A stretch of DNA of 64,000 bases from Haloarcula marismortui ATCC 43049 (GTDB taxonomy: Archaea > Halobacteriota > Halobacteria > Halobacteriales > Haloarculaceae): NCBI RefSeq assembly GCF_000011085.1, contig NC_006396.1:1674001-1738000 (forward strand), read 5' to 3'. The notes under the pieces are model-generated. The model was given only the letters and a program-made list of their open reading frames with translations, made no database searches and was not told the origin of the DNA. Shown piece by piece: positions 29,540 through 32,410 of the stretch; position 1 is the stretch's first letter; the number at the start of each line of letters is the position of its first letter. The position numbers and the translations under genes are program-made.

Positions 29540-29641
29540 AAGGACCTGAAATGGGGCGTCCTTGGGGCAGACGCCCACGGGACAGACACGAAAAGCTCGT
29601 GGCGTGCGGCGACGGGCTATGCCCACGGTGGTCGTCGCCGC
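29540..29641. ncRNA. candidate structured RNA or hairpin cluster
   Basis: Three successive stems can be drawn: GGGCGTC/GACGCCC (29554-29560 with 29570-29576), CACGA/TCGTG (29587-29591 with 29597-29601) and GCGGCGAC/GTCGCCGC (29606-29613 with 29634-29641), the last enclosing a GGGC-TAT-GCCC hairpin. An alternative stem AAGGAC/GTCCTT (29540-29545 with 29558-29563) excludes the first. No protein frame explains this. Strand and expression are unknown, so it is only a candidate. Confidence 0.3.
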
Positions 29642-29675
29642 GAAAGATGGTCGAAGCTGACAGGTCAATGTACGG

Positions 29676-29792
29676 TCACGTCCAGGCTCTCACCTCCTGT
29701 AGGGCGGCGTTTGCGCGGACGACAGGGACGGCAGCACCCGACTCGCTACGGCGACAGATGTCCCGCCTCGATGTGGCCTGTTCGTCCGGCAT
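29676..29792 (-). pseudogene. short Tat-like reading frame behind an iron box, probable gene remnant
   Basis: A 38-codon frame starts at 29792, seven bases after the iron box. It reads as a Tat-type lead: SRRDICRRSESGAAV is what a signal such as SRRDxLRxxGxGAA would become after a few changes. The frame then stops at a TGA. The promoter-to-start layout is the same as for the cupredoxin lipoprotein gene, so this may be the decayed 5' end of a second iron-regulated exported protein. It could instead be a genuine short peptide. Confidence 0.4.
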
Positions 29793-29799
29793 ACAATTG

Positions 29800-29815
29800 T
29801 TTAGGCTACCCTAAA
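29800..29815 (-). promoter_or_regulatory. DtxR/Idr-type iron box (remnant promoter)
   Basis: TTTAGG-CTAC-CCTAAA is a perfect 6-4-6 palindrome of the type bound by DtxR-family iron regulators (haloarchaeal Idr/SirR). It overlaps a TATA-like TTTTAGGG read on the minus strand and precedes the short frame at 29792. Confidence 0.6.
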
Positions 29816-29862
29816 ACACAAAAAGCCATCGGTTTCTAGGCGGGCCAAAAAAGAGAGCGTGA

Positions 29863-32334
29863 TTACTCCTCGACGATAACGGTGCCAGCCATCCCCGCAG
29901 CCTCGTGCGGAACGCAGAAGTATCCGTGCTCGCCGGCCGTCTCGAACGTGTGAACGTAACTCTGGCCGGACTGAACGGCCCCCTCACCGTTCTCCCAGCC
30001 CTCGCGTGCGGCCGACTCGCTTTCGAACCCGCCGGAAGCCCAGTAGGTCGCGTCGTCCGGGAGTTCCTCCTCGTACGCGACGACGTTGTGAGCCTCGCCA
30101 CCGGCGTGTTTCCAGGCGACTGTGTCGCCGACGCTGACGGTGAGTTCCTCGGGCGCGAACGCCACAGCCTGCATGTCGACGACGTGGTCGGCGTCCTCGG
30201 GAACGCCTTCGACGACGTTCGGGCCGCCGGACAGTGACGACTCGGTCGCCTCGGACTCCTCGCCGCCGTGGCCGCCGGAACCGCTCGGGGCGCTGTCGAC
30301 AGCGCCAACGACGGCGAAAGAAGCGGTCCGGGCGGCGTTTGCGAACGCGCTCGCGCCGTCGGTTGACCCGCTCTCCAAGTCGGCGACATAGTCGTTCAGT
30401 GCGGCCTCATAGGCTTCGTACGCCTCCGCGTCCGCGTTTTCGAGTTTGTCGTGCACCGCGGCGTTCTCGAAGGTAGCGAACACGTCGCTGACGACACTCG
30501 CGGCCCCGGCACCGGTCTCGCCACCGCCGCTCGACCCGACGATGGCCGTCACGGATTCGATGGCTGCGCCGTAGAACGTCTTCGCGGCCGCGTATACGTC
30601 ACCGCCGTCGTTCGCGGCGGAGATGACGCTCCCGAGTGCTTCGTCCTCGAAGCGGTGATACAGGTCCTCGTTCGCCTCTTCGAGTGCCTCATGGTAGCCG
30701 GCGGCCCCGGACTCGAAGAACGCCAGCGCCCCCTGAGCAGTCGACGCTGCGCGGTCGGCGTTCCCGAGAGCGTTCGTCGCCGCGGCGTCGAAGGCGAGGC
30801 CGGCCATGTAGGTCGCGCCGGACCCGCTGGCGACGGCGGCACTGTGGGCCGATTCGAACTCCAGCAGCGCCGCGAGAACGCCGTCGTGGTGGGTCCCGAC
30901 CGCGTCATCATCGCCATTCTCGTAGGCTGACTGGAGCCCCACGAGGTGTTCCTCCTCGAAGCGGTGATAGAGGTCCTCGCTGGTCTCCTCTAGCGTCTCG
31001 TGGAAGTCGAGCTGGTTCTCCTCGAACCGGGCGAACAGGTCCGAAACGAGCGTCGCTGCCTGCCCCGCCTGACCCTGGCGGTACAGCTCGCGCGCGTCGG
31101 CGAAGCGGGCTTTGAAGAAGCCCGACTGGAGAACCGGCGCGTTCCCGCCGGCCAGCGCCTCGATGCCGGCGACCAGATTGGTGTCGACCGTCTCGACGGC
31201 CGACGCGACCCCCTCGGTGTTCCCGTTCTCGATTGCTGAGGAGAGGTCCGACAAACCGGACTCGAACGCTTCGTAGGCCTCGCTGTCCGCCTCTTCGAGG
31301 GCATCGTGAGCGGCCGCGCCTTCGAAGTGGGCAAAAACGTCCTCGACCATCGTCGCCGCGGTGGCTGTCTCGCCGGCACGGGCCAGCCACCCAGCGTCGT
31401 GGACGCGGGCCCGGTACGTGTTCAGCGTCGTCGCGTGGGCGTAGTCTGCCCCGACGCCGCTGCCCGAGACGACTGCGGCCGCGTCCCAGCCACGGGCCTG
31501 CATCGTCGCAAGGTGGCCCGCACCGGCGACCGACGCCGGCTGGACCAGCGCATACGCGCCCGAAACGGTCGCATCCAGTGCGGCGCGGGCCTGTTCGGTG
31601 ACGCCGCTCGCGTCTTCACTGCCTGCGGCGGAACCGATGCCGGCCAGTGCGTTCTCAAAGGCCTCGTAGGATTCTGCGTCCGCAGCCTCTATTTTGCTGT
31701 ACACCAGCGCGTCCTCGAACGCGGTCATCGTCTCTTCCGCGATCGTGGCGGCCCCCTCGAAAGCGCCCAGCGTCCCGGCCATGGCGGCATTGCTCGCCCG
31801 ACTGCCCAGCAAGAGCAGGTCCAGCACTCTGGTGGCCTGCTGTCCGGCAGCGGCCTGCTGCGCTGTCTGGAGGTGGCCCGACGCTTTGTCCGCGGCCGAC
31901 GCGGCTTCCGATACGTTGCCCTCGGACAGCGACGACTGGACCGTCCCGAGGGCATCCTCAAAGCCCTCGTACGCTGACTCTGACGTGGACTCAAGCTGTT
32001 CGTGGGCCCCGTACTCGCCCGACGCCCCTTCGAACTGGGCAAAAATGTTCTGTGCGACGGTCGCTCCGGCACCGGGCGCACCGGCCCGACCCAGCGCGAC
32101 GGCATCGTGCAGCCGCGCCCGGTAGACGTTCCACTCGGTCGCGACAGCGGTCATCGGCCCGACCGAAACACCGCTTTCGCCGCCCTCGTCTGTTCCCGCG
32201 GTCGCTTCCTGTTCTGTCGTGTCGGTGTCCGCCGACGCCGTGTTCGATTCTGTCGACCCCTGACTGGGACACCCAGCAAGTAGTCCCGTCGCAGCGATCC
32301 CCACCGTCTTCAGCAAGTCACGTCTCTGTGGCAT
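29863..32334 (-). CDS. large iron-regulated lipoprotein with six repeats and a cupredoxin domain
   Basis: An 823-aa exported protein. The Tat motif QRRDLLKT and lipobox AGC put the lipidated cysteine at 22, followed by a Thr/Glu/Ser linker. Residues about 60-700 are helical and contain six copies of a unit of the form FAxFExA-(H)-xLExAxxEAYExFExAL. The C-terminus (about 715-823) is a blue-copper halocyanin/plastocyanin-like domain with ligands H749, C807, H810 and M815. It resembles haloarchaeal DUF5059 proteins. An iron box overlaps the promoter, so it is probably induced in iron shortage. A role in iron or copper handling at the cell surface is inferred; no transporter genes adjoin it. Confidence 0.85.
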   Translation of the reverse strand: MPQRRDLLKTVGIAATGLLAGCPSQGSTESNTASADTDTTEQEATAGTDEGGESGVSVGPMTAVATEWNVYRARLHDAVALGRAGAPGAGATVAQNIFAQFEGASGEYGAHEQLESTSESAYEGFEDALGTVQSSLSEGNVSEAASAADKASGHLQTAQQAAAGQQATRVLDLLLLGSRASNAAMAGTLGAFEGAATIAEETMTAFEDALVYSKIEAADAESYEAFENALAGIGSAAGSEDASGVTEQARAALDATVSGAYALVQPASVAGAGHLATMQARGWDAAAVVSGSGVGADYAHATTLNTYRARVHDAGWLARAGETATAATMVEDVFAHFEGAAAHDALEEADSEAYEAFESGLSDLSSAIENGNTEGVASAVETVDTNLVAGIEALAGGNAPVLQSGFFKARFADARELYRQGQAGQAATLVSDLFARFEENQLDFHETLEETSEDLYHRFEEEHLVGLQSAYENGDDDAVGTHHDGVLAALLEFESAHSAAVASGSGATYMAGLAFDAAATNALGNADRAASTAQGALAFFESGAAGYHEALEEANEDLYHRFEDEALGSVISAANDGGDVYAAAKTFYGAAIESVTAIVGSSGGGETGAGAASVVSDVFATFENAAVHDKLENADAEAYEAYEAALNDYVADLESGSTDGASAFANAARTASFAVVGAVDSAPSGSGGHGGEESEATESSLSGGPNVVEGVPEDADHVVDMQAVAFAPEELTVSVGDTVAWKHAGGEAHNVVAYEEELPDDATYWASGGFESESAAREGWENGEGAVQSGQSYVHTFETAGEHGYFCVPHEAAGMAGTVIVEE

Positions 32335-32342
32335 ACGCTCGA

Positions 32343-32356
32343 TTAGGGTTGCCTAA
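32343..32356 (-). promoter_or_regulatory. DtxR/Idr-type iron box of the cupredoxin lipoprotein gene
   Basis: TTAGG-GTTG-CCTAA is an inverted repeat of the same 5-4-5 core and spacing as the box at 29800-29815. It lies 9-22 bases before the start codon at 32334 and overlaps the TATA-like CTTTTAGG. A further half-site GAGCCTAAA occurs near 32384. Repression by an iron-loaded DtxR-type protein is the expected mode. Confidence 0.65.
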
Positions 32357-32410
32357 AAGACTTAAGACCACCGATGTTTTGGCGAGCCTAAACCGCTGTG
32401 TGGCTACACG

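Follow-up and report, generated by a model that had tools for sequence, protein, structure and literature searches.

Among described systems, two invite comparison with the locus analysed here. EfeO of the EfeUOB system has an N-terminal cupredoxin domain, believed to act on iron, followed by C-terminal M75/imelysin helical bundles (PMC9174327, PMC3143127). FtrB and P19 are periplasmic copper proteins of Fe2+ transport whose cupredoxin has been suggested to act on the iron being taken up; in vitro, FtrB oxidises Fe2+ (PMC11966278). Surface iron acquisition by haloarchaea is poorly known, and we found an FTR1 permease (PF03239) neither in the Haloarcula marismortui genome nor in any of the 391 haloarchaeal genomes sampled, with positive results for the controls.

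The window (the whole 64-kb stretch of H. marismortui DNA that we analysed) contains a gene whose 823-residue product combines the signals of a Tat lipoprotein with helical repeats and a type-1 copper domain (Table 1). The PF16502 (DUF5059) profile matches it from end to end (984.9 bits against a cut-off of 25; model positions 1-619 of 619), and by sequence the protein is a typical member of a DUF5059 plus cupredoxin family that includes HVO_1228 of Haloferax volcanii, called 'hcpE', a name that we use here for the H. marismortui gene as well. A reading made from the sequence only had put the locus forward as an undescribed system; the family is in fact catalogued, although without an assigned function in the literature that we found, and HVO_1228/hcpE has appeared in print. 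What is new in the present analysis, and apparently undescribed, is a second box-controlled element directly downstream, a less expected outcome than hcpE itself.

Table 1. Features of hcpE and of the downstream element, by position in the window
Feature	Position	Strand	Basis or detail
hcpE family gene, DUF5059-cupredoxin lipoprotein	29863..32334	-	PF16502 E 2.5e-296, residues 63-683
Tat signal and lipobox (MPQRRDLLKTVGIAATGLLAGC), residues 1-22	32269..32334	-	RR and AGC invariant, orthologue alignment
Helical repeat 1, residues 62-163, full Glu/His motif	31846..32151	-	Repeat alignment, model
Helical repeat 2, residues 165-265, degenerate, motif His lost	31540..31842	-	Repeat alignment, model
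Helical repeat 3, residues 295-399, full motif	31138..31452	-	Repeat alignment, model
Helical repeat 4, residues 402-496, full motif; extra invariant His463, His482	30847..31131	-	
Helical repeat 5, residues 499-602, full motif	30529..30840	-	Repeat alignment, model
Helical repeat 6, residues 603-681, full motif, shorter	30292..30528	-	Repeat alignment, model
Type-1 blue-copper (cupredoxin) domain, residues 704-823; ligands H749, C807, H810, M815	29866..30225	-	
Inner iron box TTAGGCAACCCTAA, -22 to -9 from ATG	32343..32356	.	Pattern search, orthologue loci
BRE/TATA-like core promoter (ATCGGTGG..CTTAAG) between both boxes	32357..32377	-	Predicted from sequence; layout conserved in orthologues
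Outer iron box TTAGGCTCGCCAAA, 1 mismatch, 35 bp from inner box	32378..32391	.	Pattern search
Outer degenerate iron box of downstream promoter, TTTGGCCCGCCTAG	29836..29849	.	Same 35-bp spacing
Inner iron box of downstream promoter, TTAGGGTAGCCTAA on - strand	29801..29814	.	Pattern search, 48 bases past hcpE stop codon
Candidate iron-controlled small RNA, ends estimated	29579..29798	-	Conservation; no Rfam match
Weak sORF in downstream element	29676-29792	-	
GGAGGTG in downstream element	29691-29697	-	Conserved
Conserved hairpin core of downstream element	29579-29643	-	

Anchor, repeats and copper domain of the hcpE product

The N terminus carries the twin-arginine motif RRDLL and the lipobox LLAGC, the combination that marks a Tat lipoprotein, with Cys22 as the predicted lipidated residue. 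We evaluated conservation in an orthologue alignment of 26 sequences (46-84% identical to the query; the nearest orthologues, at 70-83% identity, are all from Haloarcula). R4, R5 and A20-G21-C22 are invariant in it, in agreement with the lipid anchor proposed in the sequence-only reading, and the Glu, His and Tyr positions of the repeat motif described below also fall among its 135 invariant columns.

Residues 62-681 form six internal repeats of about 100 residues each, and every pairwise alignment between repeats scores above shuffled sequences (Z 3.6-22), in support of the six helical repeats of the sequence-only reading. Five of the six carry FE..H[DE]..E..Y..[FY]E, starting at residues 101, 337, 437, 540 and 622 (consensus FE-x(2-6)-H-[DE]-x-[LVA]-E-x-[AT]-x(4)-Y-x-x-[FY]-E), with Glu, His and Tyr invariant or nearly so across the 26 orthologues. 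The second repeat of the long form has no His (its motif region, residues 206-227, reads FEDALVYSKIEAADAESYEAFE); the earlier claim of a conserved Glu/His in each repeat therefore holds for five repeats and fails for repeat 2. The surface proteins of haloarchaea are all rich in acidic residues, a point against reading metal binding into the repeats, although such general acidity leaves the invariance of specific acidic residues in the hcpE product unexplained.

Structure prediction of the repeat units, which the sequence-only reading had recommended, returned an all-helical array (AlphaFold2 on the 26-sequence alignment, mean pLDDT 85.8; repeats 4 and 5 alone, pLDDT 95.3 and pTM 0.88). The predicted architecture of a single repeat is an up-down bundle consisting of helix 1, helix 2 with the FE at its end, a short HxxxE helix and a last helix, the short HxxxE helix being kinked into the helix that carries Y..FE. 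In such a model the Glu and His of one repeat may meet in one site, and we infer that the repeats bind iron; metal binding by the repeats is plausible, as is a coupling of copper redox chemistry to the uptake of iron. We found no convincing distant relative of the fold: Foldseek gave no match with E <0.5 in the PDB or the viral set, the repeat profile had no significant match among solved chains, and the best VIA-align 2 match (a PsbQ-type bundle, Z 12.2) is within the range of common helical arrangements. The repeat structure searches returned generic four-helix bundles alone (PsbQ, alpha-catenin, cytochrome c'), and this is also what they returned when a likeness to imelysin bundles was looked for.

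At the C terminus, residues 719-822 match Copper-bind (PF00127, E 9e-17), and the modelled fold superposes on plastocyanin (2plt) with Z 14.5 and an rmsd of 1.1 A over 91 residues. The ligands His749, Cys807, His810 and Met815, in the His, Cys-x2-His-x4-Met arrangement of a type-1 cupredoxin, are invariant in the long forms of the 26-sequence alignment, which bears out the blue-copper domain noticed at the outset; we infer electron transfer by the copper centre.

The family scores above the cut-off in 98 of the 391 genomes. Nine of the sampled genomes encode short forms (L057-L065) of about 500 residues, in which the PF16502 match is limited to model positions ~1-235 and 541-619 and three repeats accompany the same copper domain; these three-repeat forms show the repeat to be a modular unit. 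The second repeat keeps its His in most of them. Their axial copper ligand is Met in three, His in four and Gln in two, and its replacement in six of nine suggests a different redox potential. Four of these genomes have a separate cupredoxin gene 1-3 kb from the short-form hcpE (L058:2968-3417, L065:7221-7670, L059:1323-1769 and L060:7357-8169).

The genes around the hcpE orthologues are not conserved between most genera. The neighbours in the window (nth, SAM hydrolase, NadM-like and Lon-like genes) look housekeeping and are conserved in Haloarcula and one Halorientalis only; we therefore rejected an operon with an iron partner, and hcpE is probably transcribed alone. We also rejected the idea of an obligate partner of aerobactin/schizokinen-type siderophore synthesis, because IucA/IucC-type siderophore synthesis genes are absent from the H. 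marismortui genome and their co-occurrence with hcpE is weak (37/98 against 74/293 genomes, P 0.02 ignoring phylogeny). This weak association, together with occurrence in a subset of the sampled genomes, marks hcpE as an accessory capacity outside any one siderophore pathway. A PADLOC search for a defence function gave no match.

Iron boxes at hcpE and across the genome

We searched the window for the pattern TTAGGN4CCTAA with at most one mismatch and found three matches against 0.23 expected, a count never reached in 100 shuffles. Two of the three bracket the core promoter of hcpE, lending firm support to the DtxR-type iron box of the sequence-only reading, which had named the inner box alone and left the outer box and the one downstream of the gene unmentioned. 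Among the 25 long orthologues the inner box is exact in 22 and has at most one mismatch in all 25, with the same layout across genera, and the outer box is present in 22 at a spacing of 34-37 bp; the three-repeat relatives have a perfect box in 9/9. The box is thus conserved at the orthologues, and its absence there had been among the refuting conditions named in that reading. The rest of the orthologue loci (420 kb) contains 12 exact boxes, eight at the neighbouring downstream element and three <=190 bp upstream of hcpE.

On a genome-wide basis the extended box pattern gave 31 strand matches, against one for the reversed control. Boxes precede Peripla_BP_2 (siderophore-type) genes and a Fe_dep_repress gene (a DtxR regulator), and they head an SBP_bac_8-permease-ATPase iron ABC operon and a FAD reductase-permease-ATPase operon; by comparison of positions, eight of the ten PF01497 siderophore-type binding-protein genes are in box-headed units. 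Because the same box heads siderophore and iron ABC genes and is conserved at the orthologues, the comparative evidence identifies it as an iron-regulon operator of H. marismortui, and hcpE has this conserved promoter operator in common with the iron-uptake genes of its genome. The box before siderophore ABC genes is that of the described haloarchaeal DtxR-family iron regulon (Idr/SirR/TroR; FerR boxes), in which the fhu genes of H. volcanii are reportedly preceded by a ferR signal (PMC11349517), and the hcpE box may already stand in published Idr/FerR regulon predictions.

At three further sites in the same genome, boxes lie by genes of other kinds. One site, a near-consensus pair, lies upstream of an IMP-dehydrogenase-like gene at a distance of about 100 bp (L097:3059-3106; genome position C7:147056-147106); in H. 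volcanii, iron starvation lowers no protein more strongly than the IMP dehydrogenase HVO_A0584 (PMC11349517). Another precedes a 'reversibly glycosylated polypeptide' (PF03214) gene (L101:6633-7824; C8:779130-780324), an unexpected regulon member that itself precedes the iron ABC operon. A perfect box lies between FAD-dependent dehydrogenase-like and PAS histidine-kinase genes (L102:3064-3077; C8:1326062).

The orthologue HVO_1228 already figures in published H. volcanii expression tables. In an endA knock-down it is listed at log2 +4.2 alongside siderophore, iuc and iron ABC genes (PMC7714728), and in a cas1/fen1 mutant at log2 -2.92, again with iuc genes (PMC9051519). The passages of these two papers that contain it do not discuss its function, and the paper on the H. 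volcanii iron-starvation proteome (PMC11349517) leaves it unmentioned in its main text. The co-movement with the iuc genes indirectly supports binding by the regulator and a response to iron.

A candidate small RNA downstream of hcpE

On the same strand as hcpE, directly downstream, a second promoter has a box pair equal to that of hcpE (29579-29849, minus strand, including the element that it precedes). The box is present at all Haloarcula loci read. Past it come an ATG with a frame of 36-42 codons, then GGAGGTG and finally a pair of hairpin sequences, strongly conserved, that end in TCTGTCCC near 29579. The heptamer is perfectly Shine-Dalgarno-like, and no clear reading frame comes after it. 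A real protein from the preceding short frame is disfavoured, since its codons lack protein-type constraint (variable sites by codon position 9/5/8; 12 codons with non-synonymous changes against three with synonymous changes only).

With a covariance model built from the 65-nt core we found the apparently non-coding element in 22 of the 24 sampled Haloarcula genomes, and all 22 copies have a box upstream, at 147-236 bases in those measured. Seventeen adjoin hcpE, one lies 619 kb from it and four are in genomes without hcpE; this independent occurrence argues that the downstream box serves the element and not hcpE. Matches outside Haloarcula (L127-L131) have no box and were set aside as chance, and they were left out of the covariation count (16 distinct Haloarcula sequences) because their inclusion inflated the pair counts. 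The helices are mostly invariant, with one double change; single-sequence folding of the whole stretch is no better than that of shuffles (z -0.76), and Rfam has no match for the element at E <= 1. We consider it likely that the element is a structured RNA, and a candidate iron-starvation small RNA; if confirmed, it would be an archaeal iron-controlled RNA discovered via its operator.

Proposed role of hcpE and comparison with described systems

We propose that the hcpE product is made in response to iron starvation, exported by Tat and held at the surface by a lipid anchor, where it would capture iron and control its redox state, a reading that in our judgement could go either way. With plentiful iron, a DtxR-family repressor would sit on both boxes around the BRE/TATA-like core and block transcription, as is known behaviour of that family, and starvation would release it. 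The folded protein would then leave through the Tat pathway and be held at the surface by Cys22. Each canonical repeat, with its three Glu and single His near the junction between the end of helix 2 and the start of the kinked helix 3, would bind iron ions or take iron from weak chelates. The copper centre would exchange electrons with the bound iron (oxidising Fe2+ for ferric carriers, or supplying electrons for reduction) and also with the respiratory chain at its halocyanin/terminal-oxidase part. Because no FTR1 permease was found in the 391 genomes, the iron would be handed to the box-controlled ABC importers. Against this explanation stand the generic bundles returned by the fold searches, the missing HVO_1228 in the main text of the iron-starvation proteome, and the weak IucA/IucC co-occurrence.

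The full ligand set of the plastocyanin-type domain would also suit an extra membrane-anchored blue-copper carrier that keeps respiration going as iron-containing carriers fall, with the repeats as a stalk or docking scaffold only; halocyanin serves haloarchaea as the one-electron carrier, and iron starvation lowers respiratory subunits (PMC8305020, PMC11349517). Such an iron-sparing carrier, however, has no need of a 620-residue array with invariant Glu and His in each canonical repeat, and with halocyanin already the default carrier nothing iron-containing is obviously replaced; we think this explanation unlikely. A receptor for haem or ferric siderophores, each repeat binding haem or chelate via its conserved His/Tyr and the copper domain reducing or releasing the ligand, would account for co-regulation with siderophore binding-protein genes, for the single conserved His and Tyr that each canonical repeat has and for weak structural matches to cytochrome c' bundles (Z 8.8). 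These matches are within the range of common four-helix arrangements, the three conserved Glu of each repeat favour a non-haem metal and H. marismortui has no IucA/IucC-type synthesis genes, which makes a receptor of this kind quite unlikely. That the repeats are a reservoir of iron or other metal, or limit copper/iron redox cycling, feeding no particular transporter, strikes us as very improbable: a natural repeat number of three to six is expected of a capacity-type protein and no neighbour is conserved across genera, but published transcriptomes show hcpE changing together with uptake genes, and hcpE shares its boxes with such genes.

Returning to the iron-capture reading, the two parts of the locus could together form an iron-starvation unit. 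In it, serial Glu/His repeats would load iron and the fused blue-copper domain set its redox state for ABC uptake, as a convergent, FTR1-independent counterpart of EfeO. Its partner would be a structured RNA of ~0.2 kb, transcribed from an iron-box promoter of its own and kept across Haloarcula whether or not hcpE is present, as an archaeal counterpart of iron-sparing RNAs like RyhB. We advance this combined picture tentatively and regard it as rather unlikely. For the protein, the link to iron is robust and the mechanism is a testable hypothesis: a copper protein switched on by iron hunger, with countable candidate iron sites, makes an archaeal connection between copper and iron uptake testable in H. 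volcanii. The original observation is confirmed, and its interpretation is partly supported.

Compared with described systems, the hcpE product resembles EfeO in being exported and iron-regulated and in joining a cupredoxin to an all-helical carboxylate/His domain with a putative role in metal binding. The order of the domains is reversed, however; EfeO has one HxxE in a two-bundle fold whereas the hcpE product has HxxxE in serial repeats of ~100 residues, and the copper domain is Cup-I in EfeO and of plastocyanin type here. M75/imelysin (PF09375) has no match in the hcpE product or elsewhere in the same genome. We rejected membership of EfeUOB on the lack of both an M75 domain and FTR1, the absence of FTR1 from all 391 genomes arguing against any such system here. 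Halocyanin is likewise a lipid-anchored haloarchaeal blue-copper domain, but the hcpE product scores below the cut-off of the halocyanin model (TIGR03102; 41.3 against 93.8 bits) and carries the repeat array in addition. FtrB and P19, in contrast to the hcpE product, have no fused repeat array and work with FTR1-type permeases. At most, then, the hcpE product may function like EfeO or FtrB/P19 while standing outside those families.
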